Origin: Mycolicibacterium goodii
GTDB taxonomy: Bacteria > Actinomycetota > Actinomycetes > Mycobacteriales > Mycobacteriaceae
DNA: 64,000 nt
Assembly (NCBI RefSeq): GCF_001187505.1
Contig: NZ_CP012150.1
Location: forward strand, 1,116,001-1,180,000
Reading direction: 5' to 3'
A program made the position numbers and the translations under genes. Shown here piece after piece: positions 14,155-31,382 of the stretch; position 1 is the first letter of the stretch, and each line of letters starts with the position of its first letter. The notes under the pieces are model-generated. The model ran no database searches and was not told where the DNA came from. It was given only the letters and a program-made list of their open reading frames with translations.

Positions 14155-14173
14155 GTGTCACCGGCGCGACCGT

Positions 14174-14747: not shown

Positions 14748-14847
14748 CAACGCTGCCCTTGTCCGGAATTCTTGAGATGGACGTGATGTACATGCCGTGA
14801 TGCTTGATTGTCCGTGACGGCGGTGCGCAACCAACCGCATCCGTGTC

Positions 14848-14853
14848 TAGGCT
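14848..14853 (+). promoter_or_regulatory. Leaderless -10 element of the aminotransferase operon
   Basis: TAGGCT ends 7 nt before the ATG at 14861. The TANNNT pattern at this distance is the usual mycobacterial leaderless promoter. Confidence 0.6.
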
Positions 14854-14860
14854 CACGGCC

Positions 14861-16213
14861 ATGACAGCCACACTGATGGGCGGCCCCGACCTGCAGCAGG
14901 CCCGCCGGATCCAGACCGAAATCCCCGGCCCGCGGTCCCGTGAACTGGCCGAACGCCGCAGCGCCGCACTTCCCGCAGGCCTGGTCAGCTCGGCAGGCGT
15001 CTATGTGGCGGCCGCGGGCGGCGGCGTCGTCGTCGACGTCGACGGCAACTCGTTCATCGACCTCGGCAGCGGGATCGCGGTCACCACCGTCGGCAACGCC
15101 GCACCCGCCGTCGTGTCCCGGGCCGGCCGGCAACTCGCGCAGTACACCCACACGTGCTTCCTGGCCACACCGTACGAGCCCTACATCGAGGTCGCCGAGC
15201 GGCTCAACGCCCTGACCCCCGGCGACCACGAGAAGCGCACCGCACTGTTCAGCACGGGCGCCGAGGCCGTCGAGAACGCCGTCAAATACGCACGCGCTGC
15301 GACCGGTCGCGACGCCGTCGTGGTGTTCGACCACGCCTTCCACGGCCGGTCGCTGCTGACCATGACCATGACGGCCAAGAACCAGCCCTACAAACACGGT
15401 TTCGGCCCGTTCGCCCCCGAGGTGTACCGCGCCCCGATGGCCTACCCCTACCGGTGGCCGTCGGGTCCGCAGAACTGCGCAGACGAGGCGTTCGGCATGT
15501 TCACCCAACTCGTCGACGCGCAGATCGGCGCCGACCAGGTGGCCTGCGTGATCGTCGAACCGATCCAGGGCGAGGGCGGCTTCATCGTCCCGGCCGAGGG
15601 CTTCCTGCCGCGGGTCGCCGAGTTCTGCCGTGAGCGCGGCATCCTGTTCGTCGCCGACGAGGTGCAGAGCGGCGTCGCGCGCACCGGCGCCTGGTTCGCC
15701 AGCGAGCACGAGAACCTGGTGCCCGACCTGATCGCCACGGCCAAGGGTCTGGGTGGGGGCCTGCCGCTGGCCGCGGTCACCGGACGGGCCGAAATCATGG
15801 ACGCCGCACACGCAGGCGGCATCGGCGGCACCTACGCGGGCAACCCCGTGGCGTGCGCCGCGGCGCTCGGCGTGTTCGACGAGATCGACAACGGCGGCCT
15901 CATCGAGCGCGCCACCGCGATCGGCGACGTCATCATGCGGGAACTGCGCAGCATCGCCGAAACCACCGACATCGTCGGCGAGATCCGTGGCCGCGGCGCC
16001 ATGATCGCCGTCGAACTGGTCAAACCAGGCACCCGCGAACCCAACAAGGACGCGGTGGCGGTGCTGGTCAAGCACTGCCAGGACAACGGCGTGCTGACCT
16101 TGACCGCAGGCACGTTCGGCAACGTGCTGCGCTTCCTGCCGCCGCTGTCCATCTCCGACGACCTGCTCGCCGAGGCCTTCGGCGTCATCCGCGACGGCTT
16201 CGCCGCCCTCTAG
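14861..16213 (+). CDS. gabT: Class III omega-amino-acid aminotransferase (GabT/DavT-like)
   Basis: A 450-residue PLP-dependent class III aminotransferase. Family marks are FSTGAEAVENAVKYARAATG (phosphate site), FDHAFHGRSLLTMTMT, VIVEPIQGEGGFIVP, ILFVADEVQSGVARTG (Asp against the PLP ring) and TAKGLGGGLPLAAV with the Schiff-base Lys. The enzyme would move the terminal amino group of GABA or 5-aminovalerate to 2-oxoglutarate, giving a semialdehyde. The start at 14861 is leaderless. Next in the operon are glutaryl-CoA dehydrogenase, an aldehyde dehydrogenase and a CoA-transferase, which favours 5-aminovalerate (C5) as substrate, with GABA also possible. Confidence 0.9.
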   Translation: MTATLMGGPDLQQARRIQTEIPGPRSRELAERRSAALPAGLVSSAGVYVAAAGGGVVVDVDGNSFIDLGSGIAVTTVGNAAPAVVSRAGRQLAQYTHTCFLATPYEPYIEVAERLNALTPGDHEKRTALFSTGAEAVENAVKYARAATGRDAVVVFDHAFHGRSLLTMTMTAKNQPYKHGFGPFAPEVYRAPMAYPYRWPSGPQNCADEAFGMFTQLVDAQIGADQVACVIVEPIQGEGGFIVPAEGFLPRVAEFCRERGILFVADEVQSGVARTGAWFASEHENLVPDLIATAKGLGGGLPLAAVTGRAEIMDAAHAGGIGGTYAGNPVACAAALGVFDEIDNGGLIERATAIGDVIMRELRSIAETTDIVGEIRGRGAMIAVELVKPGTREPNKDAVAVLVKHCQDNGVLTLTAGTFGNVLRFLPPLSISDDLLAEAFGVIRDGFAAL

Positions 16214-16232
16214 AAACCAACAGGAGCCCACC

Positions 16233-17438
16233 ATGACCCTCACCGCACCCTCGGCCAAGAAGTCCAGCTACGCGCCGCTGGAACTGTTCGACACCGACCG
16301 TCTGCTCGATCAGGACGAACGTGACATCGCCGCCACCGTCCGGCAGTTCGTCGACACCCGGCTCAAGCCCAACATCGAGGGCTGGTTCGAATCGGCGACC
16401 CTGCCGCGCGAACTGGCCAAGGAATTCGGCAATCTCGGCGTGCTCGGCATGCACCTGCAGGGCTACGGCTGCGCAGGCACCAACGCCGTCAGCTACGGGC
16501 TGGCCTGTATGGAGCTGGAGGCCGGCGACAGCGGCTTCCGCAGCTTCGTGTCGGTGCAGGGCTCGCTGTCGATGTTCTCGATCTACCGCTACGGCTCCGA
16601 AGAGCAGAAGAACGAGTGGCTGCCGCGGCTGGCCGCGGGCGACGCGATCGGCTGCTTCGGCCTCACCGAACCCGACTTCGGCTCCAACCCGGCCGGCATG
16701 CGCACCCGCGCCCGCCGCGACGGCAGCGACTGGATCCTCAACGGCACCAAGATGTGGATCACCAACGGCAACCTGGCCGATGTCGCCACCGTGTGGGCGC
16801 AGACCGACGAGGGCAGCGGGGGAGTCAAGGGCTTCCTGGTCCCCACCGACACACCGGGATTCACCGCCAACGCGATCCACCGCAAGCTGTCGCTGCGGGC
16901 CTCGGTGACCTCCGAACTGGTGCTCGACAACGTGCGTCTGCCCGCCTCGGCGCAGCTGCCGCTGGCCGAGGGGCTCTCCGCGCCGTTGTCGTGCCTCAAC
17001 GAGGCCCGGTTCGGCATCGTGTTCGGCGCGCTCGGCGCCGCCCGCGACAGCCTGGAGACGACGATCGCCTACACGCAGTCGCGTGAGGTGTTCGACAAGC
17101 CGCTGTCGCACTATCAGCTGACCCAGGAAAAACTGGCCAACATGACCGTCGAACTCGGCAAGGGCATGCTGCTGGCGATTCACCTGGGCCGCATCAAGGA
17201 TGCCGAGGGGGTACGCCCCGAGCAGATCAGCCTGGGCAAGCTCAACAACGTCCGCGAGGCCATCGCGATCGCCCGCGAATGCCGAACCCTGTTGGGCGGC
17301 AGCGGGATCACGCTCGAGTACTCGCCGCTGCGGCACGCCAACAACCTGGAGTCGGTGCTCACCTACGAGGGCACCTCCGAGATGCATCTGCTGTCCATCG
17401 GCAAGGCCCTCACCGGACGGGCGGCGTTCCGCTCATGA
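16233..17438 (+). CDS. gcdH: Glutaryl-CoA dehydrogenase (acyl-CoA dehydrogenase family)
   Basis: A 401-residue FAD enzyme. Acyl-CoA dehydrogenase signatures are CFGLTEPDFGSNPAGM, WILNGTKMWITNGNLADV, LLGGSGITLEYSPLRHANN and LTYEGTSEMHLLSIGKALTG with the catalytic Glu in YEGT, a pattern characteristic of glutaryl-CoA dehydrogenases. It would oxidise and decarboxylate glutaryl-CoA to crotonyl-CoA. AGGAG lies 8 nt before the ATG. It is 19 bp after the aminotransferase and overlaps the aldehyde dehydrogenase start by 4 bp. Placement with a C5 aminotransferase and a CoA-transferase supports the glutarate role. Confidence 0.88.
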   Translation: MTLTAPSAKKSSYAPLELFDTDRLLDQDERDIAATVRQFVDTRLKPNIEGWFESATLPRELAKEFGNLGVLGMHLQGYGCAGTNAVSYGLACMELEAGDSGFRSFVSVQGSLSMFSIYRYGSEEQKNEWLPRLAAGDAIGCFGLTEPDFGSNPAGMRTRARRDGSDWILNGTKMWITNGNLADVATVWAQTDEGSGGVKGFLVPTDTPGFTANAIHRKLSLRASVTSELVLDNVRLPASAQLPLAEGLSAPLSCLNEARFGIVFGALGAARDSLETTIAYTQSREVFDKPLSHYQLTQEKLANMTVELGKGMLLAIHLGRIKDAEGVRPEQISLGKLNNVREAIAIARECRTLLGGSGITLEYSPLRHANNLESVLTYEGTSEMHLLSIGKALTGRAAFRS

Positions 17439-18898
17439 GCCCGGTGACCATCAACCACCTCGTCGCAGGCGAATGGGTGGCCGGTGCCGGTGACGCGCTC
17501 GCCAGCGTCAACCCGGCCAGGCCCGCCGACGTGGTGGCCGAAGGGCACAACGCGACCACCTCGCAGGTCGACGCCGCGGTCACCGCGGCCGCCGAGGCGT
17601 TGCGCCCGTGGGCGGCGACGCCGACACACCAGCGCGGCGCGGTGCTGCTGGCCGCGGCGCAGATCGTCGACCGCAACGCCGAAACCTGGGGTCTGGAACT
17701 GGCCACCGAGGAGGGCAAGACCAGGGCCGAGGGCATCGGCGAGGTCCGCCGCGCCGCACAGATCCTGCGGTACTACGGCAACGAGGGTGACCGGCAGGCC
17801 GGGGAGATCTTCTCCTCGCCCCGCGCAGGCGAACAGATCCTGGTGACGCGCAAGCCACTCGGCGTGGTCGCCGTCATCACGCCGTTCAACTTTCCCATCG
17901 CGATCCCGGCGTGGAAGATCGCGCCCGCGCTGGTGTACGGCAACACCGTGGTGTGGAAGCCCGCGAGCACCGTTCCGGTGCTGGCGATCCGCCTCGCGCA
18001 GGCGCTCACCGAGGCGGGCCTGCCCGCGGGCGTGCTCAACCTGGTGATCGGCGACGCCGAGACCGGCACCGCGATCGTCGACCATCCCCGCATCGACGGC
18101 CTGACCTTCACCGGGTCCACCACGGTGGGCCGTCGCCTCGCGGCCGTGGCCGCCTCATGCGGCATCCCGATGCAGGCCGAGATGGGCGGCAAGAACGCCG
18201 CCGTGGTGCTCGACGACGCCGACCTGGACGTGGCCGTCGAGCAGGTGCTGCTCGGCGCGTTCCGGTCGACCGGCCAGAAGTGCACCGCCACCTCACGTTT
18301 GATCGTCACCGACGGAATCGCCGAACGGTTCACCGAGGCGGTGGTGGAGCGGGCCCGTGCGCTGCGCGTCGGCGACCCCACCGACGACGCGACCGAGATG
18401 GGTCCGGTGATCACCGGCGCCGCCCGCAGCTCCATCACGGCGGGCATCGACACGGCCATCGCGCAGGGCGCCACGGTGCTGGCCGGCGGGCAGCCCTACA
18501 CCGAGGGGCCGCTCGCCGACGGATACTTCGTGGCCCCGACCGTCCTGGAGCTCGACGGCTCACCGGCCAAGGTGTGGAGCGAGGAACTGTTCGGCCCGGT
18601 GCTGGCGATCCGCCGCGCCGCCGACGCCGACGCGGCGTTCGAACTCGCCAACGACAGCGAGTTCGGCTTGTCCGCAGCGGTTTTCACCCAGGACCTGACG
18701 CGGGTGTTGCAGGCCATGGAGCAGATCGACGTCGGTGTGCTGCACGTGAACTCCGAATCGGCGGGGGCGGATCCGCATGTGCCGTTCGGCGGGGACAAGA
18801 AGAGCGGCCTCGGCCCCAAGGAGCAGGGTGCCGCCGCGCGCGACTTCTTCACCCACACCACCACCGTGTACCTGCGGGGCGGGCGGCCGGGCGCATGA
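17435..18898 (+). CDS. NAD(P)-dependent semialdehyde dehydrogenase
   Basis: A 487-residue aldehyde dehydrogenase. It has the cofactor loop VITPFNFPIAIPAWKIAPAL, the Gly motif FTGSTTVGRRLA, the general base Glu in AEMGGKNAAVV and the nucleophile Cys in STGQKCTATSR. In this operon the natural substrate would be glutarate semialdehyde (or succinate semialdehyde) formed by the aminotransferase. ATG 17435 overlaps the gcdH stop (ATGA) and is preferred to upstream in-frame starts inside gcdH. It overlaps the CoA-transferase start by 4 bp. Confidence 0.88.
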   Translation: MSPVTINHLVAGEWVAGAGDALASVNPARPADVVAEGHNATTSQVDAAVTAAAEALRPWAATPTHQRGAVLLAAAQIVDRNAETWGLELATEEGKTRAEGIGEVRRAAQILRYYGNEGDRQAGEIFSSPRAGEQILVTRKPLGVVAVITPFNFPIAIPAWKIAPALVYGNTVVWKPASTVPVLAIRLAQALTEAGLPAGVLNLVIGDAETGTAIVDHPRIDGLTFTGSTTVGRRLAAVAASCGIPMQAEMGGKNAAVVLDDADLDVAVEQVLLGAFRSTGQKCTATSRLIVTDGIAERFTEAVVERARALRVGDPTDDATEMGPVITGAARSSITAGIDTAIAQGATVLAGGQPYTEGPLADGYFVAPTVLELDGSPAKVWSEELFGPVLAIRRAADADAAFELANDSEFGLSAAVFTQDLTRVLQAMEQIDVGVLHVNSESAGADPHVPFGGDKKSGLGPKEQGAAARDFFTHTTTVYLRGGRPGA

Positions 18899-19998
18899 GC
18901 GGGGCCGCCCTTGAGGGCATCGTGGTCGCGGACTTCAGCCGGGTGCTGGCCGGCCCGTACGCCACCATGATGCTCGCCGACTTCGGCGCCGAGGTCATCA
19001 AGGTCGAGCGGCCCGGCACCGGGGACGACACCAGGCACTGGGGTCCGCCGTACGACTCCACCGGTGTGGCAACGTATTTCAACTCGGTCAACCGCAACAA
19101 GCGCTCCGTCGCACTGGATCTGGGCAGCGAGGAAGGGCGCGAGCAGGCGCGCGGGCTGATCCGCCGCGCCGACATCGTGGTCGAGAACTTCCGGCCGGGC
19201 ACCATGGAGAAACTCGGCCTGGGCTACGACGACATCCGCGCGATCCGCCCCGACGTCATCTACTGCTCGATCACCGGATTCGGCCACGGCGGCGGCGCGG
19301 GCCTGCCCGGATACGACCTGCTGGTGCAGGCCGTCGGCGGACTGATGAGCGTCACCGGCACCGAACCGGGTGATCCCACCAAAGCCGGTGTGGCGCTGGT
19401 GGATGTGCTGGCCGGTATGCACGCGCTCAGCGGCATACTGGTCGCGCTGGCCCACCGGGACCGCACCGGCGAGGGACAGCGCGTGGACACCAACCTGTTC
19501 TCGGTGCTGCTGTCGTCGATGGTGAACCAGGCGTCGGGCTATCTGGGCGCCGGTGTGGTGCCGGGCATCATGGGCAACCGCCACCCGAGCATCGCGCCGT
19601 ACCAGACCTTCGACACCGCCGACCGGCCGATCGCGGTCGCGGTGGGCAACGACAAGCAGTTCCGCGCGTTCAGCGAGGTGATCGGCAACCCCGAACTGGC
19701 CGACGATCCGCGGTTCGCGACCAACCCGCAACGGGTGGCCAACCGGGATGTGTTGTGTCCCTTGATCGAGACCGCGCTCAACGTGCACGGTGCCGATCAC
19801 TGGTATCACGCGCTGAATGCGGTCGGGGTGCCTGCCGGACCGATCAACGACCTGTCCGAGGCGTTCGCGTTCGCCGAGGAACTCGGCATCGAGGCCGTGG
19901 TGCAGATGCCGGACGGCCCCACCCCGCAGGTCGCCAACCCGATCACGCTGTCGGCGACCCCGGTGACCTACCGCAACAGCCCGCCTCCGCTCAGCTGA
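18895..19998 (+). CDS. Family III (CaiB/BaiF) CoA-transferase
   Basis: A 367-residue class III CoA-transferase. Visible motifs are VVADFSRVLAGPYATMMLAD, GAEVIKVERPGTGDDTR, ENFRPGTMEKLGLGYDDIR and SITGFGHGGGAGLPGYDLL, where the catalytic Asp sits in PGYD. In the glutarate pathway this family activates glutarate with succinyl-CoA; that role is inferred from gcdH in the same operon. ATG 18895 overlaps the preceding stop (ATGA). The gene ends the operon and overlaps the convergent pucR stop by 8 bp. Confidence 0.87.
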   Translation: MSGAALEGIVVADFSRVLAGPYATMMLADFGAEVIKVERPGTGDDTRHWGPPYDSTGVATYFNSVNRNKRSVALDLGSEEGREQARGLIRRADIVVENFRPGTMEKLGLGYDDIRAIRPDVIYCSITGFGHGGGAGLPGYDLLVQAVGGLMSVTGTEPGDPTKAGVALVDVLAGMHALSGILVALAHRDRTGEGQRVDTNLFSVLLSSMVNQASGYLGAGVVPGIMGNRHPSIAPYQTFDTADRPIAVAVGNDKQFRAFSEVIGNPELADDPRFATNPQRVANRDVLCPLIETALNVHGADHWYHALNAVGVPAGPINDLSEAFAFAEELGIEAVVQMPDGPTPQVANPITLSATPVTYRNSPPPLS

Positions 19999-21502
19999 GG
20001 CCGGGCCGCTCGCGGCTCACCAGCAGCTGCCAGGCGCGCACCGCGAGCCACAGCTGGGCGCGGGTGTCCGCGGTGTCGAGGTCGTCGGCGAGCAGATCGC
20101 CGATGCGCCGCATCCGGTTTCGCATGGTGTGGCGGTGGATCTGCAGTTCGCTCGCCGCGGCTTCGAGCTGACCGTTGTGCCGCAGGAACGCCGTCAGGGC
20201 GTCGAGAAGTTCGTCACCACCGGCCAGCACCGGTTCCAGCGGCTGGGCCAGCACGCGCAGCTCGGCCGTGCTGCGACCGCCCAACAGCGTGCCGAACACC
20301 TTCACGTCGGCGAACTCGGTGATACCGCGCCGGGATTTCGAATACGCGGCGATCCGGGCCTGTTCGACGCCGACGACCGCATCGGCCAGGCGCACCGGCC
20401 TGCTGGCCCCGCCGCTGACGGTGCGCCCGGTGACCCGACCGAACTCCTCGACCGCGGCGTAGACCCGCCTGCGCCGCGCCGCGGGCACGATGATGGCGAA
20501 CTCGTCGCCGGTGCTCGTCATCAGATACGCACCGGCAGGCGCGAGGCGCTGCCCGAGATCGTCCTGCGCCGTGAGCAGCGGCGTGAAGCCGGTCAGCAAC
20601 AGCACCACGACCTCGTCGTCGGGCCGAAACCCCAGATAGCGCAACACGGCGGTGTCGGTGGTCCCGGTTCCGGACAGGAGGTCGCGGGTGACCGCCGAGC
20701 GCAACCGGTCCTCGGCGTCCACCACGCGTGCGGGTTTCTCCAGTTCGATCGAGATCAGCGACACAGCATGGGCCACCAACAGCCGCTGCGAATTCGACAT
20801 GGGCTGCCCGGTGCGCACCGCGAGATGCCCACGGACAACCTGGGCGGCGCGCAGGCTCTGTACGGTCACGAAACCTTCGGCGTCGGCGACCACGCTCGCC
20901 TGGGTGCGGGCGCCGGTGCGCCGCGACGATTCCAGCACGTCGATCAGTTGTTCATCGGCGCCGCCGCGGGTGGCCAGGATGCGGCCCTCGATGTCGGCGA
21001 CCACGACTGTGCCGGACAGGCATTCGGCGAGCGCGTTCACCACGGCGGGGATGCCGCCGCGCAAGGTGGCCCGCACCAGCACCTGCTGCTGGTCGACCAC
21101 CCGTTGCACGGCGCGCAGTTCGTCGGCCTTGACCGCGTCGATCACGACGCGCGCGATCGCGATGAACGGTGTGGAGGCAGGCACCGCGAGCACCGGCAGC
21201 CCCAGTTCGTCACCGGCGGCCAGCACGGCAGCCGGGACCTCCCGCAGCGTGGTGCCGGTGTCGACGGCGAGCGCCGCGATGCCCGCCGCCGCCAGCCGTG
21301 CCACGTAGTCGCGTTGTTCGGCGGCCCCGGCACCGATGTTGATGCCGGTGGTCATGACGAGTTCGCCGCCCTCCAGATACGGTGTGGGATCTGCCAACTC
21401 GTTGGCGTGGGCCCAGGTGATCTCCCGGTCCGCGCCGTGGGCTCCCGCGAGCAGCACCAGGCCGAGCGCGTCGACCTGTGCCAGCCCGCGCGCGGTGATC
21501 AC
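19991..21502 (-). CDS. PucR-family transcriptional regulator
   Basis: A 503-residue regulator: N-terminal PucR domain (ARGLAQVDALGLVLLAGAHG, LEGGELVMTTG), a middle GGDEF-like domain, and a C-terminal helix-turn-helix (LEAAASELQIHRHTMRNRMR). GTG 21502 overlaps the puuD stop as GTGA; a longer frame to 21619 would lie inside puuD and is rejected. PucR-type proteins control purine, polyamine and amino-acid catabolism. It is the last gene of the minus-strand amine operon and faces the glutarate operon, so it probably regulates one or both. Confidence 0.88.
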   Translation of the reverse strand: MITARGLAQVDALGLVLLAGAHGADREITWAHANELADPTPYLEGGELVMTTGINIGAGAAEQRDYVARLAAAGIAALAVDTGTTLREVPAAVLAAGDELGLPVLAVPASTPFIAIARVVIDAVKADELRAVQRVVDQQQVLVRATLRGGIPAVVNALAECLSGTVVVADIEGRILATRGGADEQLIDVLESSRRTGARTQASVVADAEGFVTVQSLRAAQVVRGHLAVRTGQPMSNSQRLLVAHAVSLISIELEKPARVVDAEDRLRSAVTRDLLSGTGTTDTAVLRYLGFRPDDEVVVLLLTGFTPLLTAQDDLGQRLAPAGAYLMTSTGDEFAIIVPAARRRRVYAAVEEFGRVTGRTVSGGASRPVRLADAVVGVEQARIAAYSKSRRGITEFADVKVFGTLLGGRSTAELRVLAQPLEPVLAGGDELLDALTAFLRHNGQLEAAASELQIHRHTMRNRMRRIGDLLADDLDTADTRAQLWLAVRAWQLLVSRERPGLS

Positions 21503-22308
21503 TCCGCCGGTGCCGCCGCGACAGCTGTGGACTGGCGGGCCTGTTCGGCCGCGTCGACGAACGCGCCGAACAACCGCATCCGGTCGGCCGGTGAACCGTC
21601 GGTGTCCTCGGGATGCCACTGCACGCCCAGATAGAAGCGGTCAGGGTCCTCGATGCCTTCGGTGATGCCGTCGAGCGCCCGTGCGGCCACCACCAGATTG
21701 CGCCCGAGGCGGTCGACGGCCTGGTGGTGTCCGTTGCGGCCGACCACGCGTTCGGCGCCGAGGATCGCGGCGAGTCGCGTACCCGCGACCACATCGATGG
21801 GCTCGTCGACGAACACCGGTTCTCCGGGTCCGCCGTGGTGCAGTCGGTAGTCCTCGATGTCACCGATCAGGGAGCCGCCGCGGGCGACGTTGAGCAGCTG
21901 CGAACCCCGGCAGATCCCGAAGATCGGCCTGCCGGCGGATTCGGCCGCGGCGATCACGGCGAACGCGTCGCGGTCGGCACGCAGGTCGACCCCGTAGGAC
22001 TTCGGGTTGGGTTCGCACACGCCGTAACAGGACCCGTCGACATCGCCGCCGCCGAGCAGCAGTACACCGTTGAAATCGGCTGCCGCCGAAGGGTTTTCCA
22101 GCGGCGTGCTGGTGTCCCACAGCTCGAACGACGCACCGAGTGAGACCAGGGTCTCCAATGCGGTGCGGGTGAACCGCCTGACCAGTCCGGCGTCGTGCTC
22201 GTCGATGTCGGGATAGTTCAACGAGGCCAGGACGCACACGTGGGCGCGCGCCGACGCCGGTTCCGACGGGTTCGGGATGACGTCTTCGCGCCGTACCCGA
22301 ATGGTCAT
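21499..22308 (-). CDS. puuD: Gamma-glutamyl-GABA hydrolase-like protein 1
   Basis: A 269-residue class I glutamine-amidotransferase-like hydrolase. The nucleophile elbow is FGICRGSQLLN with C133; the catalytic His and Glu are in VQWHPEDT. PuuD-type enzymes remove glutamate from gamma-glutamylated GABA or related omega-amino acids. ATG 22308 overlaps the stop of the upstream puuD copy, and its own stop overlaps the pucR start. Tandem duplication with a second PuuD suggests two different glutamyl substrates. Confidence 0.88.
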   Translation of the reverse strand: MTIRVRREDVIPNPSEPASARAHVCVLASLNYPDIDEHDAGLVRRFTRTALETLVSLGASFELWDTSTPLENPSAAADFNGVLLLGGGDVDGSCYGVCEPNPKSYGVDLRADRDAFAVIAAAESAGRPIFGICRGSQLLNVARGGSLIGDIEDYRLHHGGPGEPVFVDEPIDVVAGTRLAAILGAERVVGRNGHHQAVDRLGRNLVVAARALDGITEGIEDPDRFYLGVQWHPEDTDGSPADRMRLFGAFVDAAEQARQSTAVAAAPAE

Positions 22309-23734: not shown

Positions 23735-25116
23735 GGTGCGTCGCTCCAATACATTTCGCGTTCCCACTCGGTCACATAGCCACAGAACCGGGCCCACTCG
23801 TCGGCGTGGAAGTCGACGAGCAGCGACGAGAGGTCCGGACCGAGCGCCTGGGTGAGCACCTCGTCGGCGCGGAAGGCGTCGATGGCCTCGCCGAGCGTCA
23901 ACGGCAGTGCCGGGAAGCGGTCGTCGACCGGCGCGTCATAGGACGATCCCTGCGTCGGCTCACCCGGGTCGATGGCGTTCTTCATGCCGTCCTCACAGGC
24001 CGCCAGGATGACCGCGTGCGACAGATAGGGGTTGACCGCGGCGTCGGGCAGCTTGTACTCCAGGCGCCCGACCGCGGACAGCCGCACGGTGCAGGTCTTG
24101 TTGTCCAGACCCCAGTTGATCCGCGACGGCGCGAATTGTCCGGCGTCCCAATACCGTTTGTACGAGTTCACCGTGGAACCGTTGATCAGCATGGCCCCTG
24201 CCGAGTGCGCCAGCAGACCGCCGAGCGCGTGCTGACCGAGTTCGGACAGGTGCAGTTGGGTGACACCCGGCTCGGCGAGGACGTTGACGTCGTCGCGCCA
24301 CAGGCTGAAGTTGTGGTGGCAACCGTTGCCCATCATGCCGGTCGCGGGCTTGGGCATGAAGCTCGCCTCGATGCCCAGCTCACGCGCCACCTGCTTGCAG
24401 ATCTGGCGGTAGGTGATCAGCCGGTCGGCGGTGAGGTCGGCCCGGTCGTACATGAAGTTGAGCTCCACCTGGAACTCGTCTTCGTAGTCACCCTCGATCA
24501 TGTCGAGGCCGAGCGCCTGGGCGTATTCGATGACCTTCTTGACGATCGGGCGGTTCCGCTCGAGATGCTCGATGTGGTAGGCCGGGCTGGAGCCCGGACG
24601 GAACTGCGCCTGCAGGCCTTCGCCCTGCCAGGTCATCTCCGGCTCGCAGCCGGTGCGCAGCTCCAGACCGGTACGGTCGGTGAAGCCCGCATGCATCCGG
24701 CGCAGCACTCCCCGTGAGTCGCAAGCGAATTCGGCACCGGCACGTTCGGGAAGGTGGTCGGGTTCATACAGGCGGCAGAACACCCTGGCGAAGCTCGGGT
24801 CCCACGGCAGCACCGCGAACGTCTCCAGGTCCGGGATGGCCGTGTACTCAGGGGCGTTCACGCCGCCGGCGAGCAGCACACCCTCGCGGGTGCCCTGCAG
24901 GTTGGCCACCGCGGTCTGGTGTTGCTGCACACCCTTGACGGCGAGGCGTTCAAAGTGCCTGGCGGGAGCGACCTTTCCCACGACCCGGCCGGTGATGGTG
25001 ACGGCCTGGAAGTAGACGAACTCGACTCCCCGGTCGGCGATGGTCTCCAACGCGGCGGCGAGGTGCGGGCTGGTGGCATTGGCCTGCCGGTGCACGTCAA
25101 GGGGTGAGATGGTCAT
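23731..25116 (-). CDS. Glutamine-synthetase-family gamma-glutamyl-amine ligase
   Basis: A 461-residue member of the glutamine synthetase superfamily. It has the N-terminal beta-grasp part (VEFVYFQAVTITGRVVGKVA), the metal-site motif GCEPEMTW, EGDYEDEFQVELNF, the ATP loop PKPATGMMGNGCHHNFSLW, and NSYKRYWDAGQFAPSRINWG with the family Arg. Context (two PuuD hydrolases, amine-type P450, PucR) points to a PuuA-like enzyme joining glutamate to an amine rather than ammonia. Such ligases also occur in mycobacterial cyclic-amine loci. The gene is 5 bp after the ferredoxin gene in the same operon. Confidence 0.87.
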   Translation of the reverse strand: MTISPLDVHRQANATSPHLAAALETIADRGVEFVYFQAVTITGRVVGKVAPARHFERLAVKGVQQHQTAVANLQGTREGVLLAGGVNAPEYTAIPDLETFAVLPWDPSFARVFCRLYEPDHLPERAGAEFACDSRGVLRRMHAGFTDRTGLELRTGCEPEMTWQGEGLQAQFRPGSSPAYHIEHLERNRPIVKKVIEYAQALGLDMIEGDYEDEFQVELNFMYDRADLTADRLITYRQICKQVARELGIEASFMPKPATGMMGNGCHHNFSLWRDDVNVLAEPGVTQLHLSELGQHALGGLLAHSAGAMLINGSTVNSYKRYWDAGQFAPSRINWGLDNKTCTVRLSAVGRLEYKLPDAAVNPYLSHAVILAACEDGMKNAIDPGEPTQGSSYDAPVDDRFPALPLTLGEAIDAFRADEVLTQALGPDLSSLLVDFHADEWARFCGYVTEWEREMYWSDAP

Positions 25117-25121
25117 GGTGA

Positions 25122-25310
25122 TCAGTCCTCGATCGTGATGGCCTGGAGCGGGCAGACGTCGGCGGCCTCCTCGACCACGGACCGCTCGGAATCAGAAGGC
25201 GTGCTGATGTATTCGAGCACGCCTTCGTCGGTCATGGAGAACACCGATGGTGCGGCGATGACGCACTGGCCGTGGTCCTGACAGCGGGTGAGATCAACCG
25301 AGACACGCAT
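25122..25310 (-). CDS. 3Fe-4S-type ferredoxin
   Basis: A 62-residue ferredoxin with three cysteines, C10, C16 and C53, in CQDHGQC and VCPLQAI, with His 13 where a fourth ligand could be. This spacing is that of single-cluster ferredoxins that pass electrons to bacterial P450s. It lies 36 bp after the P450 gene and 5 bp before the glutamine-synthetase-like gene. No ferredoxin reductase is in the window, so a reductase from elsewhere must serve. Confidence 0.9.
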   Translation of the reverse strand: MRVSVDLTRCQDHGQCVIAAPSVFSMTDEGVLEYISTPSDSERSVVEEAADVCPLQAITIED

Positions 25311-25346
25311 TTTCGATCCTTTCTGAGCGGGTGGGCTGTTGCGGAT

Positions 25347-26549
25347 TCAGGGGGCGGGGGTGAAGCCGATCGGCAGAATGCTCGGCCCGGTGTTGCCCGA
25401 GTCGGGCAGCCAGGTCGCGCCGGGCAGTTGGTAGGGGTCGCGCAGGCGGCGGGCCAGCAGCGGCAGCGCCTCGCTCATGTCCGAGCGGGCCACGAAGTGG
25501 CCGAGGCAGTGGTGCACGCCGCCGCCGAAACCGAAGTGCGGCTTGCGTTCTGCGGCGATGTCGAAGCCGGGTTCGAACACCCGCGGGTCGGTGCCCGCCG
25601 ATTCGCTGTACAGATGCACGGTGGTCCCGGCGGTCAGCGTCACGCCTTCGTACTCGAAATCCTCGATCACCTCGCGGGTCACCCACCGCACCGTGGGGTT
25701 GACCCGCATGACCTCCTCGACGGCCTTGCCGCCGAGGTCGGGACGTTCGGCGAGCAGCCGCCACTGGTCCGGGTTCTTCATGAACGTCTGCATCGCCAGG
25801 CCGAGCTGGTTGCGGGTGGTGTCGAAGCCGCCGAAGATCAACAGCAGGATGGCATCTCGCAGCTCGGTGTCGGTGAGCCTGCCGTCATCCGGGCGCGACG
25901 CGTTGACCAGCGTGGTCATGAAGTCGTCGCGCGGGTTGGCGCGACGGTCGGCGATCAGCTCGTCGCTGTACTCGTAGAGCCGCTGCACGGCCGCCTCGAT
26001 CTTGGGCAGGTCCTCGCGCAGGGTGACGCCAAGGGACAGGCCGATCGTGGTGGACTCGGTCGAGATGACCTTCCACTCCTGTTCCGGCAGGCCGAGCATG
26101 ATCGCGATGACCCTGGCCGCGTACGGCTCGGCGAACTCGCTGACGAACTCGCAGCGGTCGGGTTCTGCGAAGTTGTCGATGAGTTCGTTGGCCAGCGCCT
26201 GGAATCGGGGCACCAGCGATCCGATCAGCTTGGGCGAGAACGCCGGGTTCATCAGCCGGCGCAGCCGGTGGTGTTCCTCGCCTTCCTTGTTGAGGATCCA
26301 GCTGGCGAACCACTCGGCGAACGGCCCCTCGGTGACGCCGTTGTGGGCCGGCCACGCGGCGCTGCCCTGACGCAGTTTGGGGTGTTTGATCAAGCGGCTG
26401 ACCTGCTCGTAACGCAGGACGGCGATCCCGTACGGGGTCGTTGCGTACCAGCTCTTCTCGCGGGCCTGATGGACCTCATCGGACGTGATCGAAAATGCCG
26501 GGTCCGTGACATCAAAGCTGGGGACGGAGTCGAGTGTGGTCGACGACAT
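25347..26549 (-). CDS. Cytochrome P450
   Basis: A 400-residue soluble bacterial P450. The I-helix oxygen-activation motif is GGFDTT (240-245), the K-helix ExxR is EVMR (279-282), and the haem loop is FGFGGGVHHCLG with the thiolate C348. ATG 26549 has GGAGGT a few bases upstream. It heads the operon P450-ferredoxin-ligase-binding protein-puuD-puuD-pucR. By context it may hydroxylate the carbon next to nitrogen in a secondary or cyclic amine to open the ring, like CYP151 (PipA/MorA); the subfamily cannot be told by eye, so this stays a hypothesis. Confidence 0.92.
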   Translation of the reverse strand: MSSTTLDSVPSFDVTDPAFSITSDEVHQAREKSWYATTPYGIAVLRYEQVSRLIKHPKLRQGSAAWPAHNGVTEGPFAEWFASWILNKEGEEHHRLRRLMNPAFSPKLIGSLVPRFQALANELIDNFAEPDRCEFVSEFAEPYAARVIAIMLGLPEQEWKVISTESTTIGLSLGVTLREDLPKIEAAVQRLYEYSDELIADRRANPRDDFMTTLVNASRPDDGRLTDTELRDAILLLIFGGFDTTRNQLGLAMQTFMKNPDQWRLLAERPDLGGKAVEEVMRVNPTVRWVTREVIEDFEYEGVTLTAGTTVHLYSESAGTDPRVFEPGFDIAAERKPHFGFGGGVHHCLGHFVARSDMSEALPLLARRLRDPYQLPGATWLPDSGNTGPSILPIGFTPAP

Positions 26550-26591
26550 CAGTGCTACCTCCGAGAGTTCGCGACCGGGCGGTCACCAAAT

Positions 26592-26618
26592 ACTCTAAAA
26601 GTAGATTGTTAAAGTCAA
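26592..26618 (-). promoter_or_regulatory. Promoter of the P450 operon
   Basis: On the minus strand TTGACT (26618-26613) and TAGAGT (26597-26592) resemble SigA -35 and -10 hexamers, with a short 15-nt spacer, about 43 bp before the P450 start in an unusually AT-rich stretch (26590-26690). GTTAAAG occurs twice nearby (near 26608 and 26671) and may mark regulator sites. Confidence 0.45.
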
Positions 26619-26696
26619 TAGCTCGACGACGGTCAATTTCCGGCGATTTCGTCAAAGCTGGATTACGCCTGTTAAAGAGCTGTTACCGGCCGGTAG

Positions 26697-27416
26697 TCAG
26701 CGGGCGATCGCGACGACCCAGCCGGTGCCGAGCGGCATCTCGGCCACCTCGCCGAACTCACCGGCGTCCTTCCCGGACGCCGTCCGCGGCATCTCGGCGA
26801 GCCGTGATCCGACGAACCATCGCGGCGTGTTCGCGGCCAGCACCCGGCGCTCGGTGTTGACCACCACGGCGTCGCGGCCGGTCTGGCGCAGCACCGCGAG
26901 CAGACTGCGCTCCACCTCGCCGACCACGAGGTCCGCCCCGGCGATCCCGAGGAAGGTGCCATCGGCGACCACCGGAACCGTGGCCGTGATCGTGTACATG
27001 TCGGAGCCGCTGTAGTCGACATAGGGCCCGTAGGCCACCCGCGCCTGCCCGCGTTGTGCCAGTTGGTAGAAGTCCATCTGCAGGTAGTCGTAGACGTCGA
27101 CGCTGGTCGGGTCGAAGTTGAGCCGCAGCCGGGCCACCCGGTCGTCGGCGCGACGCTGCCACCAGGCCAGATAGCGCTCCTTGCCCTCGACCACGAACGG
27201 CGCGGCGATGAACCCCATGCCCCACACGTCGTGCCTGCCGTGCAGCACGTCGGCCAGCCGGCGCTGCAGTCCGCCGAAGTGCGCCTCGGTCAGCGGTGCG
27301 CGCGGCGGCCTGCTGCGCAGCACCTCCTCGGCGATGCTCTCGAGCAGCCGGTACAGCGGCTCGAGCGCGTCCGACGCCTCCCGGGCCAGGTGCCGGGCCA
27401 GCTGGTTCTCGCTCAT
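26697..27416 (-). CDS. Soluble Cache-domain sensor-like protein
   Basis: A 239-residue protein with a PDC/Cache-like sensory fold: VWGMGFIAAPFVVEGKERYL, LAWWQRRADDRVARLRLNFD, VAYGPYVDYSGSDMYTITAT, PVVADGTFLGIAGADLVVGE. Such domains are normally extracellular in chemoreceptors and kinases; this one has no membrane helix or output domain. Its GTG/ATG start lies in a 4-bp overlap with the GntR gene stop (27413-27416), so both are made together. A cytosolic ligand-binding partner of the GntR regulator is an attractive inference. Confidence 0.75.
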   Translation of the reverse strand: MSENQLARHLAREASDALEPLYRLLESIAEEVLRSRPPRAPLTEAHFGGLQRRLADVLHGRHDVWGMGFIAAPFVVEGKERYLAWWQRRADDRVARLRLNFDPTSVDVYDYLQMDFYQLAQRGQARVAYGPYVDYSGSDMYTITATVPVVADGTFLGIAGADLVVGEVERSLLAVLRQTGRDAVVVNTERRVLAANTPRWFVGSRLAEMPRTASGKDAGEFGEVAEMPLGTGWVVAIAR

Positions 27417-28150
27417 CCGCCGGCCTCCTTCGCCGTGAGATCCAGGTTGATCCGGGTCAGGCGGGCGAGCTGGCCCATCACATGAGCCTCGGCCAGTTCG
27501 CGGGCCTCTGCGGCCTTTTCGGCGGCGATGGCGGCAGAGATCGCGTGCTTCTCCTCCACATAGGCGGCGACGTCGATGGCGGGTCCGATCGGCAGCCAGA
27601 TCAGGCCGGACACCTCAGCCTGCAGGTTCGCCTCGCGGCGCGCCAGCCGGGCCGACTGGGCCGCGACCGCGACCTGGATGTGGAACCGGCTGTCGGCGCG
27701 GATCCGGTCCCGCAGCGACGTCGCGGTGTCGAGTTGATCGGTCAGCGCGAACAGCCGCCGCACGGTCGACGGCGCCGCCCGCTCCGCGGCCAGCCGGGCC
27801 GCCTGACCCGCGACCGCGGTGTGCTCGTCGAACAGATCACGCAGGTCAGAGGCGCTCATGGCGGCAAGCCGGGCGGTCAGCGTCTCGACCGGCGGGCCCG
27901 CGGGTCGGCGCACGAAGGACCCGCCGCTGCGGCCGCGACGGGTCTCCACCAGTTCCAGTTCGCGCAGTGTCGCCAGCGCCTCGCGCACGGTCATCGGGGC
28001 GACGCCGAACTGCGCGGCGAGATCGACCTCCACCGGCAGACGCTCGCCGTCGTCCAGCAATCCCAGGTGGATGGCCTCGGTGATGCGTTGCACGATCTCG
28101 TCGGCGCGGCCCACCGGGGCCTCGGGCGCGACGAGCGGCGACAGCGACAC
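27413..28150 (-). CDS. GntR-family (FCD) transcriptional regulator
   Basis: A 245-residue regulator: winged helix at 15-80 (IVQRITEAIHLGLLDDGERL, FGVAPMTVREALATLRELEL) and an all-helical FCD ligand domain from about 100. The start is GTG 28150, with AGAGGAG about 9 nt upstream. It is divergent from the amino-acid permease, and the shared 220-bp region holds a strong inverted repeat. A GntR regulator (PipR) controls the P450 of the M. smegmatis piperidine locus, as I recall; whether this protein is its counterpart needs comparison. Confidence 0.88.
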   Translation of the reverse strand: MSLSPLVAPEAPVGRADEIVQRITEAIHLGLLDDGERLPVEVDLAAQFGVAPMTVREALATLRELELVETRRGRSGGSFVRRPAGPPVETLTARLAAMSASDLRDLFDEHTAVAGQAARLAAERAAPSTVRRLFALTDQLDTATSLRDRIRADSRFHIQVAVAAQSARLARREANLQAEVSGLIWLPIGPAIDVAAYVEEKHAISAAIAAEKAAEARELAEAHVMGQLARLTRINLDLTAKEAGG

Positions 28151-28295
28151 CGGCGCTTACTCCTCTTCTTCGTGGTCTTCTTCGTGGTCAGAGAGGTCTT
28201 GTCCAGGTACAGGCGGGCGATCCCAGCGGGACCGGTTGGCCGTGCCGGCCCGTTCGATGTCGGCAATCTACCCGATTTGCGACGAATTCTGCCGT

Positions 28296-28322
28296 TCCTA
28301 TTGCTCGATAAACAATAGGAAT
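28296..28322. promoter_or_regulatory. Strong inverted repeat between GntR and permease genes
   Basis: TTCCTATTG and CAATAGGAA are perfect 9-bp arms separated by 9 bp (CTCGATAAA). It lies about 50 bp before the permease start and is AT-rich against the local background. Most likely the operator of the adjacent GntR protein. Confidence 0.6.
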
Positions 28323-28370
28323 GTAGTTTTTCGCTCACTTGGCGCAGCACCTCCAGCAGAAAGCAGGCTG

Positions 28371-29867
28371 ATGTCTATTTCCAAGTCCCCTGTCAGCCCC
28401 TCGGAAGGGGCTCCCGCGTCCGATCCGGACGCCGCGCATCTGGACCAGCTCGGCTACAAGTCCGAGTTCAAACGCGATATGAGCCCGTGGGCCAACTTCT
28501 CGCTCGGATTCACCTACCTGTCGCCCGTGGTCGGCATCTACACGCTGTTCGCCTACGCCCTGGCCACCGGCGGACCGCCGATGATCTGGAGCCTCCTGAT
28601 CGTCGGCGTGGGCCAGCTGCTGGTCGCGCTGGTGTTCAGCGAGGTCGTCGCCCAGTTCCCGGTCGCCGGTGGCGTCTACCCCTGGGCACGCCGACTCTGG
28701 GGACGCAAATACGCCTGGATGACCGGGTGGGTGTACCTGGTGGCCCTGCTGGTGACGATCGCGTCGGTGACCTACGGCTCCGGTCCGTTCATCGCCGCGA
28801 CCTTCGGCATCGACGCCACCGTGAACAACACCATCGCCTTCGCGCTGCTGCTGCTCGCCCTGGCCACGATCATCAACTTCATGGGCACGAAAGTCCTCGC
28901 CAAGGCGGCGATCATCGGTTTCACGGCCGAGATCATCGGTGCGCTGGTGGTCGGCGGCTGGCTGCTGATCGCACACCGCGAGCACAACCTCGGCGTCATC
29001 TTCGACAGCTTCGGCGCAGGCGGTGACGGCAGCTACCTGTGGGCGTTCGCGGCCGCGGCGCTGATCGGCGTGTACCAGTACTACGGTTTCGAGGCCTGCG
29101 GCGACGTCGCGGAAGAGGTGCCCGATCCGGGGCGCCTGATCCCCAAGGCCATGCGCCGCACCATCTACATCGGCGGTGCCGCAGCCACTTTCGTGTGCCT
29201 GTCGCTGGTTCTCGCGGTCACCGACATCCCCGCGGTGATCGCCGGTGAGGACGTCGACCCGGTCAGCACCGTGCTCACCGAGGCATTCGGCCCGATCGGC
29301 TCGAAGGTCATCCTGGTCATCGTCCTGCTCTCGTTCCTGTCCTGCGCGATGAGCCTGCAGGCCGCCGCGAGCCGGCTGGCCTACTCGTACGGCCGCGACG
29401 GCATGATCATGGGCAGCAGCCTGCTCAAGAAGTTCTCGGCCTCGCGTCACGTCCCGCCGTACGCGCTGATCCTGGCCGCCATCGTGCCCGCGATCATCAT
29501 CATCGGGTCGAAGATCTCCACCGACGCGATCACCAAGATCATCAGCTTCGCCGCCTTCGGCATCTACCTGGGCTTCCAGATGGTCGTGCTGGCCGCACTG
29601 CGGGCCCGGCTGAAGGGCTGGGTGCCGTCCGGAAAGTACACGCTGGGCACGTGGGGTGTGCCGGTCAACATCGCGGCACTGGTGTACGGGGTGATCGCGA
29701 TGATCAACATGGCGTGGCCGCGCACCCCCGACGCGCCCTGGTACGACAACTGGATCGTCGCCCTGTCGGCGGCCGTGGTCGTGGTGACCGGCCTGGTGTA
29801 CATGGCCGTGCACCCGCTGCACGACCGCAGCACCGCGCCGTACTCCGACGCCATCCCTTCGAGGTAG
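28371..29867 (+). CDS. Amino-acid/amine permease (APC superfamily)
   Basis: A 498-residue transporter with about 12 membrane helices. APC features are FSLGFTYLSPVVGIYTLFAY, FPVAGGVYPWARRLWGRKYA and ACGDVAEEVPDPGRLIPKAM, characteristic of GABA/choline-type permeases. ATG 28371 is chosen because the protein then starts with a short cytoplasmic tail and helix 1 is complete; upstream in-frame starts would lie in the GntR gene. It would import GABA, an omega-amino acid or an amine for the neighbouring catabolic operons. The following aldehyde dehydrogenase gene is 38 bp downstream, probably cotranscribed. Confidence 0.88.
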   Translation: MSISKSPVSPSEGAPASDPDAAHLDQLGYKSEFKRDMSPWANFSLGFTYLSPVVGIYTLFAYALATGGPPMIWSLLIVGVGQLLVALVFSEVVAQFPVAGGVYPWARRLWGRKYAWMTGWVYLVALLVTIASVTYGSGPFIAATFGIDATVNNTIAFALLLLALATIINFMGTKVLAKAAIIGFTAEIIGALVVGGWLLIAHREHNLGVIFDSFGAGGDGSYLWAFAAAALIGVYQYYGFEACGDVAEEVPDPGRLIPKAMRRTIYIGGAAATFVCLSLVLAVTDIPAVIAGEDVDPVSTVLTEAFGPIGSKVILVIVLLSFLSCAMSLQAAASRLAYSYGRDGMIMGSSLLKKFSASRHVPPYALILAAIVPAIIIIGSKISTDAITKIISFAAFGIYLGFQMVVLAALRARLKGWVPSGKYTLGTWGVPVNIAALVYGVIAMINMAWPRTPDAPWYDNWIVALSAAVVVVTGLVYMAVHPLHDRSTAPYSDAIPSR

Positions 29868-29905
29868 GCGCAACCGTCCGCCCGCTCACGATCGAAAGAA
29901 ATGAC

Positions 29906-31270
29906 TTGACCACCACCACTCAGCCGCCGTACCGCAGCACCAACCCGGCCACCGGTGAAGTTCTCGCCGAGTTCGCCACCACCACCGACGATGAGGTCGC
30001 GGCGGCCATCGCCGCCGCCGACGAGGCGTTCCGGTCCTGGCGCACAACGCCTTTGGATGAGCGCGTCGACGTCGTTCGGACCGTCGGGAAGCTGCTGCGC
30101 GAACGTGCCGACGACTTCGCGAAGTTGGCCCAGCTGGAGATGGGCAAGAAACCCCGTCAGGGTTCCGGCGAAACCCGGTTCTCTGCATCGATTTTCGAGT
30201 TCTACGCCGACCGTGGCGCCGACCTGCTCGCCGACGAGCGCATTCCCACGTTCACCGGCGGGCAGGCGGTGATCCGGCGTCAGCCGGTCGGTGTCCTGCT
30301 CGGCGTCATGCCGTGGAACTTCCCGGTCTATCAGATCGCGCGCTTCGCGGCGCCGAACCTGGTGCTGGGAAACACCCTGCTGCTCAAGCACGCCGAGTCG
30401 GTTCCGCAGTGCGCACTGGCGTTCGCCGAGTTGATGCGCGACGCCGGTGTGCCCGACGGGGTGTACACCAACCTGTTCGCGACGTTCGACCAGGTCGCGA
30501 CGATCATTGCCGACCCACGGGTGCAGGGAGTCTCGGTCACCGGGTCCGAACGGGCCGGCGCGGCCGTGGCGGGGTTGGCCGGGCAGGCGCTGAAGAAGTG
30601 TGTGCTGGAGTTGGGCGGATCGGATCCGTTCATCGTGCTCGACGGTGATCCGAAGGCGCTGGCCGCCACCGCGTGGAACTTCCGGATGCACAACATGGGG
30701 CAGGCATGCAACTCCAACAAGCGGATCATCGTCCTCGACGACATCTACGACCAGTTCTTGGCCGAGTTGGTCGCCGCCGCAGCGGCTTTCACCGGTGACG
30801 AGGTGGCACCGCTGTCCTCGCGCGCGGCCGCGGAGAACCTCGCCGCGCAGGTCGCCGACGCGGTGGACAAGGGAGCGACGTTGCACACCGGCGGGGTGCT
30901 GTCCGAGGCACCCAAGGCCTTCTACACGCCAGCCGTGCTGACCGGTGTGACACCGGGCATGCGCGCCTACACCGAGGAGTTGTTCGGCCCGGTGGCCGTC
31001 GTGTACCGCGTCGCCGACGAAGAAGCGGCGATCAGGCTCGCCAACTCGACCGAGTTCGGGCTCGGCGCCTCGGTTTTCAGCTCCGACACCGCACGCGCCG
31101 AAGCCGTGGCACGCCGCCTCGAGGCGGGTATGGTCAACGTCAACACCCCCTCCGGTGACGGTCCGGACATCCCGTTCGGCGGCATCAAGCGGTCGGGCTT
31201 CGGCCGTGAGCTCGGCACCCTGGGCATCGACGAGTTCGTCAACAAGCAGGTCTACGTCGTCGCCGATTGA
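29906..31270 (+). CDS. Aldehyde dehydrogenase, succinate-semialdehyde type
   Basis: A 454-residue aldehyde dehydrogenase. Visible are GVMPWNFPVYQIARFAAPNL, the Gly motif VTGSERAGAAV, the general base Glu in LELGGSDPFIV and the nucleophile Cys in NMGQACNSNKR. Its length and motifs match short SSADH-type enzymes (GabD2/Sad). The only fitting start is TTG 29906 with a weak GAAAG before it; the nearby ATG 29901 meets a stop after two codons. It would oxidise a semialdehyde made from the amine imported by the permease. Confidence 0.87.
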   Translation: MTTTTQPPYRSTNPATGEVLAEFATTTDDEVAAAIAAADEAFRSWRTTPLDERVDVVRTVGKLLRERADDFAKLAQLEMGKKPRQGSGETRFSASIFEFYADRGADLLADERIPTFTGGQAVIRRQPVGVLLGVMPWNFPVYQIARFAAPNLVLGNTLLLKHAESVPQCALAFAELMRDAGVPDGVYTNLFATFDQVATIIADPRVQGVSVTGSERAGAAVAGLAGQALKKCVLELGGSDPFIVLDGDPKALAATAWNFRMHNMGQACNSNKRIIVLDDIYDQFLAELVAAAAAFTGDEVAPLSSRAAAENLAAQVADAVDKGATLHTGGVLSEAPKAFYTPAVLTGVTPGMRAYTEELFGPVAVVYRVADEEAAIRLANSTEFGLGASVFSSDTARAEAVARRLEAGMVNVNTPSGDGPDIPFGGIKRSGFGRELGTLGIDEFVNKQVYVVAD

Positions 31271-31376: not shown

Positions 31377-31382
31377 TATGTT
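31377..31382 (+). promoter_or_regulatory. -10 element of the iclR gene
   Basis: TATGTT, 39 bp before the ATG at 31421, with a clear ribosome-binding site (GGAAGGAG, 31408-31415) following. No operator-like palindrome was seen in 31271-31420. Confidence 0.4.

Follow-up and report, generated by a model that had tools for sequence, protein, structure and literature searches.

The loci closest to the one described here are the pip and mor loci of mycobacteria, where pipR and pipA of Mycolicibacterium smegmatis mc2 155 were reportedly described by Poupin et al. in 1999. In mycobacteria that degrade polycyclic aromatic hydrocarbons (PAH), an operon is found in the order cytochrome P450 (CYP151-pipA, CYP150 or CYP51), fdx and glnA (PMC10516948). 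Piperidine induces PipA in M. smegmatis, and in Mycobacterium sp. HE5 morpholine is oxidised by MorA with a ferredoxin and a reductase (PMC9477822). In this paper we looked at a locus at positions 14861 to 31270 of a 64,000-nucleotide window from Mycolicibacterium goodii (NZ_CP012150.1, positions 1,116,001 to 1,180,000), whose genome is a single contig of 7.1 Mb. Judged by its gene content, this is probably a locus of the pip type that allows growth on a cyclic secondary amine, with the C5 compound piperidine as the most probable candidate.

The locus is made of two convergent operons and an adjoining permease/dehydrogenase pair, a layout proposed earlier from the letters alone (the sequence-only reading) and borne out by the gene calls. 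Searches against Pfam, NCBIfam and the PDB confirmed all the enzymes which that reading had named, at about the same positions; PucR, an SBP_bac_3 protein, a Cache-domain protein, IclR and the conserved P450-promoter palindrome had not been listed in it. The features, in window coordinates, are as follows.

14861..16213, plus strand: class III aminotransferase, GabT/DavT-like, proposed 5-aminovalerate aminotransferase (Pfam Aminotran_3; NCBIfam TIGR00700; the ATG at 14861 was picked inside the open reading frame 14804-16213)
16233..17438, plus strand: glutaryl-CoA dehydrogenase GcdH, predicted by kinship to solved 3swo
17435..18898, plus strand: aldehyde dehydrogenase ALDH1, proposed glutarate-semialdehyde dehydrogenase (Pfam Aldedh)
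18895..19998, plus strand: family III CoA-transferase, proposed succinyl-CoA:glutarate CoA-transferase (Pfam CoA_transf_3)
19991..21502, minus strand: PucR-type regulator at the downstream end of the P450 operon (Pfam PucR, HTH_30; its GTG start overlaps the PuuD1 stop)
21499..22308, minus strand: PuuD1, gamma-glutamyl hydrolase-like (Pfam Peptidase_C26)
22305..23018, minus strand: PuuD2, gamma-glutamyl hydrolase-like (Pfam Peptidase_C26; PuuD among its solved relatives)
23015..23734, minus strand: protein of the amino-acid-binding SBP_bac_3 fold without a signal peptide, predicted cytosolic (Pfam; structure model; co-occurrence)
23731..25116, minus strand: glutamine synthetase (GS)-like protein, proposed gamma-glutamyl-amine ligase (Pfam Gln-synt_C; solved relatives)
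25122..25310, minus strand: small ferredoxin with a CxxHxxC...CP motif (sequence motif), which we take to be of the 3Fe-4S type
25347..26549, minus strand: cytochrome P450, PipA/CYP151-type by kinship (Pfam p450)
26588..26618, minus strand: P450 promoter, TTGAC box and palindrome (core TCTANNNNTAGA at 26594-26605)
26697..27416, minus strand: Cache-domain protein without an N-terminal membrane anchor, predicted cytosolic (Pfam MCP-like_PDC_1; structure model; hydropathy)
27413..28150, minus strand: GntR regulator, PipR counterpart by position (NCBIfam GntR-family matches)
28309..28332, minus strand: conserved element GAAAAACTACANTCCTATTGTTTA in the GntR-permease gap
28371..29867, plus strand: APC-family permease, proposed for amine uptake (Pfam AA_permease_2)
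29906..31270, plus strand: aldehyde dehydrogenase ALDH2, proposed gamma-glutamyl-aminoaldehyde dehydrogenase (Pfam Aldedh)
31382-32167: IclR regulator, just beyond 14861..31270

The rightward run of aminotransferase, GcdH, ALDH1 and CoA-transferase is met tail to tail by a leftward block of nine genes (GntR, Cache protein, P450, ferredoxin, GS-like ligase, SBP_bac_3 protein, PuuD2, PuuD1 and PucR). From the GS-like gene through PucR each neighbouring pair overlaps by 4 bases, as expected of one operon. The permease and ALDH2 genes are divergent from GntR.

In the route that we infer, the permease would import the amine and the P450, together with the ferredoxin, would hydroxylate the carbon adjoining the nitrogen. 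The resulting hemiaminal would open to 5-aminopentanal, in equilibrium with a cyclic imine, and the GS-like ligase would cap the amine with glutamate, preventing re-closure of the ring. A gamma-glutamyl cap is known to serve in this way in Puu-type catabolism, where it blocks re-cyclisation of the amino-aldehyde 4-aminobutanal. ALDH2 would then oxidise the capped aldehyde and a PuuD hydrolase would remove the glutamate, giving 5-aminovalerate, which the aminotransferase would convert to glutarate semialdehyde and ALDH1 to glutarate. The CoA-transferase would form glutaryl-CoA from it, and GcdH would yield crotonyl-CoA and CO2. GntR, perhaps informed by the Cache protein as a cytosolic protein of the amine type, would repress the P450 promoter at the palindrome, while the SBP_bac_3 protein would bind an alpha-amino-acid ligand in the cytosol, probably a gamma-glutamyl intermediate.

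The P450 is 95-96% identical to its counterparts in M. smegmatis and M. goodii; the one labelled M. smegmatis (P0003) is 96% identical and carries no PipA label. The threshold of a CYP family is about 40% sequence identity, and the name PipA/CYP151 is used here by kinship only. As far as this kinship goes, a P450 outside the amine-oxidising subfamilies, the outcome that was named as refuting the sequence-only reading, did not arise. The kinship to pip/mor loci that the sequence-only reading had drawn from the P450, ferredoxin, GS and GntR genes is supported by this identity and by the gene order, with the ferredoxin and then the GS-like gene downstream of the P450 and the GntR gene linked to it. 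The best NCBIfam matches of GntR are LldR/PdhR models, all below cut-off, and no NCBIfam model matched the ferredoxin.

The GntR, P450, ferredoxin and GS-like genes are shared, in the same order, with the M. smegmatis pip locus and the P450-fdx-glnA operons of PAH-degrading mycobacteria (PMC10516948). Whereas the regulator, P450, ferredoxin and GS are the genes named for pip loci in the parts of those accounts used here, our locus also holds the SBP_bac_3 protein, two PuuDs, the Cache protein and PucR, as well as a permease, aldehyde dehydrogenases and the glutarate operon; M. smegmatis may well have these additional genes too, as the M. goodii-like genome G077 does. Like the MorA system of Mycobacterium sp. 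HE5, whose substrate is a saturated N-heterocycle, it has a P450 and a ferredoxin, but no reductase gene adjoins the P450 (PMC9477822). The pipA/bioI clusters of Gulosibacter molinativorax also combine a P450, an electron-transfer protein and a nearby GS, whose locus number neighbours that of the P450 cluster; there, however, a reductase is adjacent, the GS was read as serving nitrogen assimilation, and the sections of that account used here propose neither a gamma-glutamyl nor a glutaryl-CoA route (PMC9477822). Among the matches listed in searches of open-licence papers we recognised no such route tied to piperidine or the P450, and no description of cytosolic SBP or Cache proteins of this locus type or of a P450-promoter operator. 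The core of the locus has been known since 1999, while the extended anatomy (complete route, SBP_bac_3 protein, Cache protein and operator) seems to be new.

The GS-like protein has as its nearest solved relatives the glutamate-methylamine ligase 9qur (215 bits) and a type III glutamate-ammonia ligase (180 bits). At the position aligned with E327 of true GS, presumably the ammonium-site glutamate, it has F328, and this position is Phe in 51/51 higher-scoring alignment rows, Trp in 4 lower-scoring alphaproteobacterial rows and likewise aromatic in the aligned glutamate-methylamine ligase 7cql. The residues that we take to form the glutamate site are retained across the alignment rows. Based on these residues the protein may be a gamma-glutamyl ligase; it is not placed as a gamma-glutamylputrescine synthetase, with 200 bits against the PuuA equivalog NF045547 (cut-off 650). 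In PuuD1, C133, H232 and E234 are retained in at least 97% of 46 rows, and in PuuD2 the same holds for C115, H208 and E210 in 51 rows. The logic of gamma-glutamyl capping, aldehyde oxidation and PuuD hydrolysis is shared with the Puu pathway of Escherichia coli, whereas here a P450 stands in place of the PuuB oxidase and the proteins score below the Puu equivalog cut-offs. An oxidative and a gamma-glutamyl route had been suggested to sit together; the genes of both are present, but they probably form one single route and not two parallel ones.

For the second half of the pathway, the aminotransferase reaches 572 bits against the NCBIfam 4-aminobutyrate transaminase model TIGR00700, above its cut-off of 507, and has two further relatives in the host genome (58-61%). 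GcdH is predicted to be a glutaryl-CoA dehydrogenase by close kinship, being nearly identical to solved 3swo (860 bits; 354 bits to 1siq/1sir), and with this match an ending in glutaryl-CoA, as the sequence-only reading had it, is the best-supported reading of the pathway. The solved relatives of the CoA-transferase are CaiB/BaiF-type and SUGCT proteins. The same four enzyme classes are known from the davTD-gcdHG glutarate/5-aminovalerate catabolism of Pseudomonas; here all four lie in one run, which is convergent with the P450 operon and meets PucR.

A P450 scan of named genomes gave 69 loci, which the presence of the SBP_bac_3 gene splits into 50 and 19; the score cut-offs for gene presence were chosen for this analysis. 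The P450 identity is mostly 71-90% in Mycolicibacterium, mostly 67-83% in Streptomyces, Nocardioides and other actinobacteria, and 53-60% in proteobacteria and Brevibacterium. The 50 loci with the SBP_bac_3 gene have GS in 50, PuuD2 in 50, permease in 48, GntR in 47, Cache in 47, PuuD1 in 45 and ALDH in 35, and the recurrence of the same block in 50 of 69 P450 loci indicates that the arrangement is more than chance. In 24 of these 50 loci the flank that was fetched includes a GcdH or CoA-transferase gene (18 among the 35 loci whose flanks are complete), although the 24 are mutually related and not independent events, with an arrangement that varies by clade. The linkage recurs in Mycolicibacterium, Streptomyces, Nocardioides and Microtetraspora: the genes converge in L003-L006 and similar loci, lie beyond the permease on the upstream side in L037-L042, precede the P450 in its own orientation in Streptomyces L022/L026, and lie downstream in L025/L036. 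The 19 loci without the SBP_bac_3 gene (18 alphaproteobacterial by title or genus and one labelled only Proteobacteria) all have a P450 and a GS-like gene; one annotated example, L050, has a reductase, two GS-like genes, an ALDH, a permease and a GATase.

In the M. goodii-like genome G077, 15 of 17 queried genes are found with their order unchanged and at 88-97% identity, and the promoter palindrome is there as well. Both operons, that of the P450 and the convergent one of aminotransferase, GcdH, ALDH and CoA-transferase, are syntenic with the window; IclR lies beyond the fetched edge, ALDH2 is clipped by it, and no AhpC gene was seen on the far side of the aminotransferase. The locus is a conserved pip-type locus of environmental actinobacteria and not unique. 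In M. litorale F4 (L067:10001-11190) and in G056:C1:2866581-2867767 the P450 reading frame is broken in two near residue 219 while the SBP_bac_3 gene is retained, which may reflect a sequence error, decay or a regulated event. G033 (C11, C17) and G041 (C2, C13) each carry two P450-SBP loci, with P450 identities of 87-88% and 62%, possibly for two cyclic-amine specificities. M. chlorophenolicum also has two loci (L013:1-9000 and L070), and the L013 contig holds an additional GS-SBP-PuuD set, apparently broken.

From Mycolicibacterium to Streptomyces and Humibacillus, the P450 gene is preceded by a TTGAC box and then a palindrome with the core TCTANNNNTAGA. When 31 promoter regions were compared with TCTANTTNTAGA, the match was exact in 20 and had one mismatch in 8, against 6 of 1519 mononucleotide-shuffled regions with at most one mismatch. 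The exact core was observed 32 times in the 1,369,978 bases of the loci (3.1 expected on a mononucleotide basis), and 30 of these copies lie 4-91 bp before a called P450 start; of the remaining two, one precedes the split P450 of L067. The other, around 8760 in L043, a locus of a Streptosporangiales metagenome-assembled genome, is a second copy of the palindrome and lies near additional P450 fragments. The exact core is present in 31 of the 50 loci with the SBP_bac_3 gene and absent in all 19 without it, and a longer form of the promoter pattern has, at up to 3 mismatches, its sole match in the 7.1-Mb host genome at the P450 promoter. The palindrome overlies the promoter, which would fit a repressor site, and its linkage to GntR suggests that GntR may bind it. 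Between GntR and the permease, 23 of 37 regions carry the 20-base core of GAAAAACTACANTCCTATTGTTTA with at most 2 mismatches. No perfect 6+6 palindrome in this gap was common to six sequences, and since GAAAAACTACANTCCTATTGTTTA is not a clean palindrome, we do not call it an operator.

Two proteins of the block have folds that are normally extracellular and appear here, by their sequences, to be intracellular. Of 148 congeneric genomes, 18 have the SBP_bac_3 gene, and they are exactly those with the P450 at 58% identity or above, a line drawn after a gap was seen (58%, then 39%) among the matches listed, best first. In a class-level sample it was found at E 1e-30 in 1 of 197 genomes, the host itself, yet named Streptomyces and Nocardioides have it too. 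Its Pfam and solved matches show the SBP_bac_3 receptor fold (model with a predicted local distance difference test score, pLDDT, of 90.5), and the amino-acid-type head is retained (R83, D167-D169). In 69 of 71 rows a start codon lies 2-19 residues ahead of the first strand motif (the motif was mislocated in two rows, L004 and L082, and some rows are one genomic place taken twice), although some rows have additional upstream in-frame starts within the GS gene. The peak 19-residue hydropathy in the first 45 residues is at most 1.12 in 50/50 sequences (49 loci). The protein is therefore predicted to lack a signal peptide and to be cytosolic, unlike an extracytoplasmic ABC receptor. A part in an ABC importer was rejected, as the operon has neither a permease nor an ATPase gene for it and a signal peptide is lacking. 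A cyclohexadienyl-dehydratase-like enzyme was also set aside; AncCDT-1 is among the matches, but so are many plain binding proteins.

The Cache protein (model pLDDT 92.7) has the dCache_1AM double-Cache fold, and its top solved matches are mostly amine receptors. In our own alignment of the dCache amine motif, the terminal Asp D162 and the Ser/Thr position T144 are each kept in 41/41 rows. The hydropathy of the first 60 residues is at most 1.31 in 40/40 sequences, and hydropathy peaks in an internal stretch (1.62 at residues 147-165 of the window protein), which is a strand in the model and begins at 140-149 in 34 of 41 rows. No other domain was found in the Pfam scan, so that the protein does not have the make-up of a membrane-receptor sensor domain and is predicted to be cytosolic. 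It shares the fold and the terminal Asp with the dCache_1AM amine sensors but, unlike them, has no N-terminal membrane anchor or signalling domain and matches the motif incompletely (PMC10104139). A joint hypothesis is that the SBP_bac_3 fold acts as a dedicated cytosolic carrier or enzyme for gamma-glutamyl intermediates, the capped amino-aldehyde being passed from ligase to dehydrogenase to hydrolase, and that the Cache protein is an intracellular amine co-sensor for GntR as repressor of the palindrome-bearing P450 promoter; we put this forward tentatively, as a somewhat doubtful idea.

Several observations weigh against the route and its regulation as we propose them. At the family level, the PuuDs reach 50.6 and 72.4 bits against the PuuD equivalog NF008471 (cut-off 266), for which reason they are graded only PuuD-like; the best NCBIfam model of ALDH2 is of the succinate-semialdehyde dehydrogenase type and below cut-off; ALDH1 reaches no cut-off among the best 25 NCBIfam models listed; and the CoA-transferase has 361 bits against its best model, succinate-glutarate CoA-transferase NF052585, below the cut-off of 750. 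A ferredoxin homologue is found in 46 of the 69 P450 loci, and no ferredoxin reductase gene lies in the locus, although five Reductase_C proteins are encoded elsewhere in the genome. In the Cache protein, position T142, where the motif wants a hydrophobic residue, is occupied by Thr in 23 of 41 rows, and the internal stretch rises to 2.01 in one row (at least 2.33 in the permeases). The exact core of the palindrome is absent in 19 of the 50 loci with the SBP_bac_3 gene, the L037-L042 group included. GcdH and CoA-transferase are missing from the flanks of 26 of these 50 loci, 17 of which have full flanks, and in the 19 loci without the SBP_bac_3 gene GcdH, CoA-transferase and aminotransferase are found in none, an ALDH1-like gene in one, a permease in one, and none of the remaining genes. 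Finally, M. smegmatis is said, in a cited title, to use pyrrolidine, and with this C4 substrate the glutaryl-CoA genes would not be needed.

These last points bear on another explanation, that the glutarate operon is an independent neighbour for lysine, cadaverine or 5-aminovalerate and that the substrate of the P450 operon is pyrrolidine or some other amine. The loci with neither gene in the flank and the separate PucR and GntR regulators would fit this, yet the linkage is repeated in different arrangements across four genera and the genome has just three GcdH-like genes at 66% identity or more, the locus copy included, and we find this explanation unlikely. A function of the GS-like enzyme in assimilating ammonium from amine breakdown, with no gamma-glutamyl route, would agree with the view of the neighbouring Gulosibacter GS, which was tied to nitrogen use and ammonium assimilation (PMC9477822). 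The aromatic residue in place of the ammonium-site glutamate, shared with 7cql, the presence of PuuD2 in 50/50 loci and the five further GS-like genes of the host genome (at most 36% identity) argue against it and make it quite improbable.

The order of steps could also be reversed, the ring amine being gamma-glutamylated first, held by the SBP_bac_3 protein through its amino-acid head and hydroxylated by the P450 as a bound conjugate. Such a role would suit the retained head and the strict linkage of this protein to the P450, but free morpholine is oxidised by MorA with ferredoxin and reductase (PMC9477822), and 19 loci have the P450 and the ligase without the SBP_bac_3 gene; there is little probability that the ligase acts first. 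The earlier suggestion of a cyclic amine or a diamine was supported for the cyclic amine; cadaverine is the weaker alternative because a diamine needs no P450. A Puu-like pathway for putrescine or cadaverine with the P450 as an incidental gene would explain the set of ligase, ALDH and PuuD and the Cache fold, which is close to polyamine receptors among others. However, no PuuB-like oxidase was found in the Pfam scan of the 20 proteins of 13475-34753, for which a diamine-only Puu pathway was set aside, and the P450, which has a promoter of its own, is the first gene of the run that ends with PucR, in a block that is kept together, so that we regard an incidental P450 as very unlikely. Growth on a cyclic amine through a single capped route is the reading we prefer.

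Around the locus, a shikimate-dehydrogenase-like gene faces the IclR regulator (31382-33033), a sigma-70 region 4 protein and a small open reading frame adjoin a DUF417/MauE-like membrane protein (12774-14161), and an intradiol (catechol-type) dioxygenase gene is found at 38120-39031.

If the proposed route is correct, it would complete a pathway that is known mainly by its first enzyme and would explain the GS gene beside pipA as capping the amine once the ring has opened. Many drugs and pesticides contain piperidine, pyrrolidine or morpholine rings, which are also common in industrial effluent, so that the gene set and the promoter element could serve as markers for degraders. The Cache-GntR pair would test whether Cache domains can sense ligands inside the cell, and the strict pairing of a signal-less SBP_bac_3 protein with one P450 group would offer a clean test of such folds as cytosolic carriers or enzymes.

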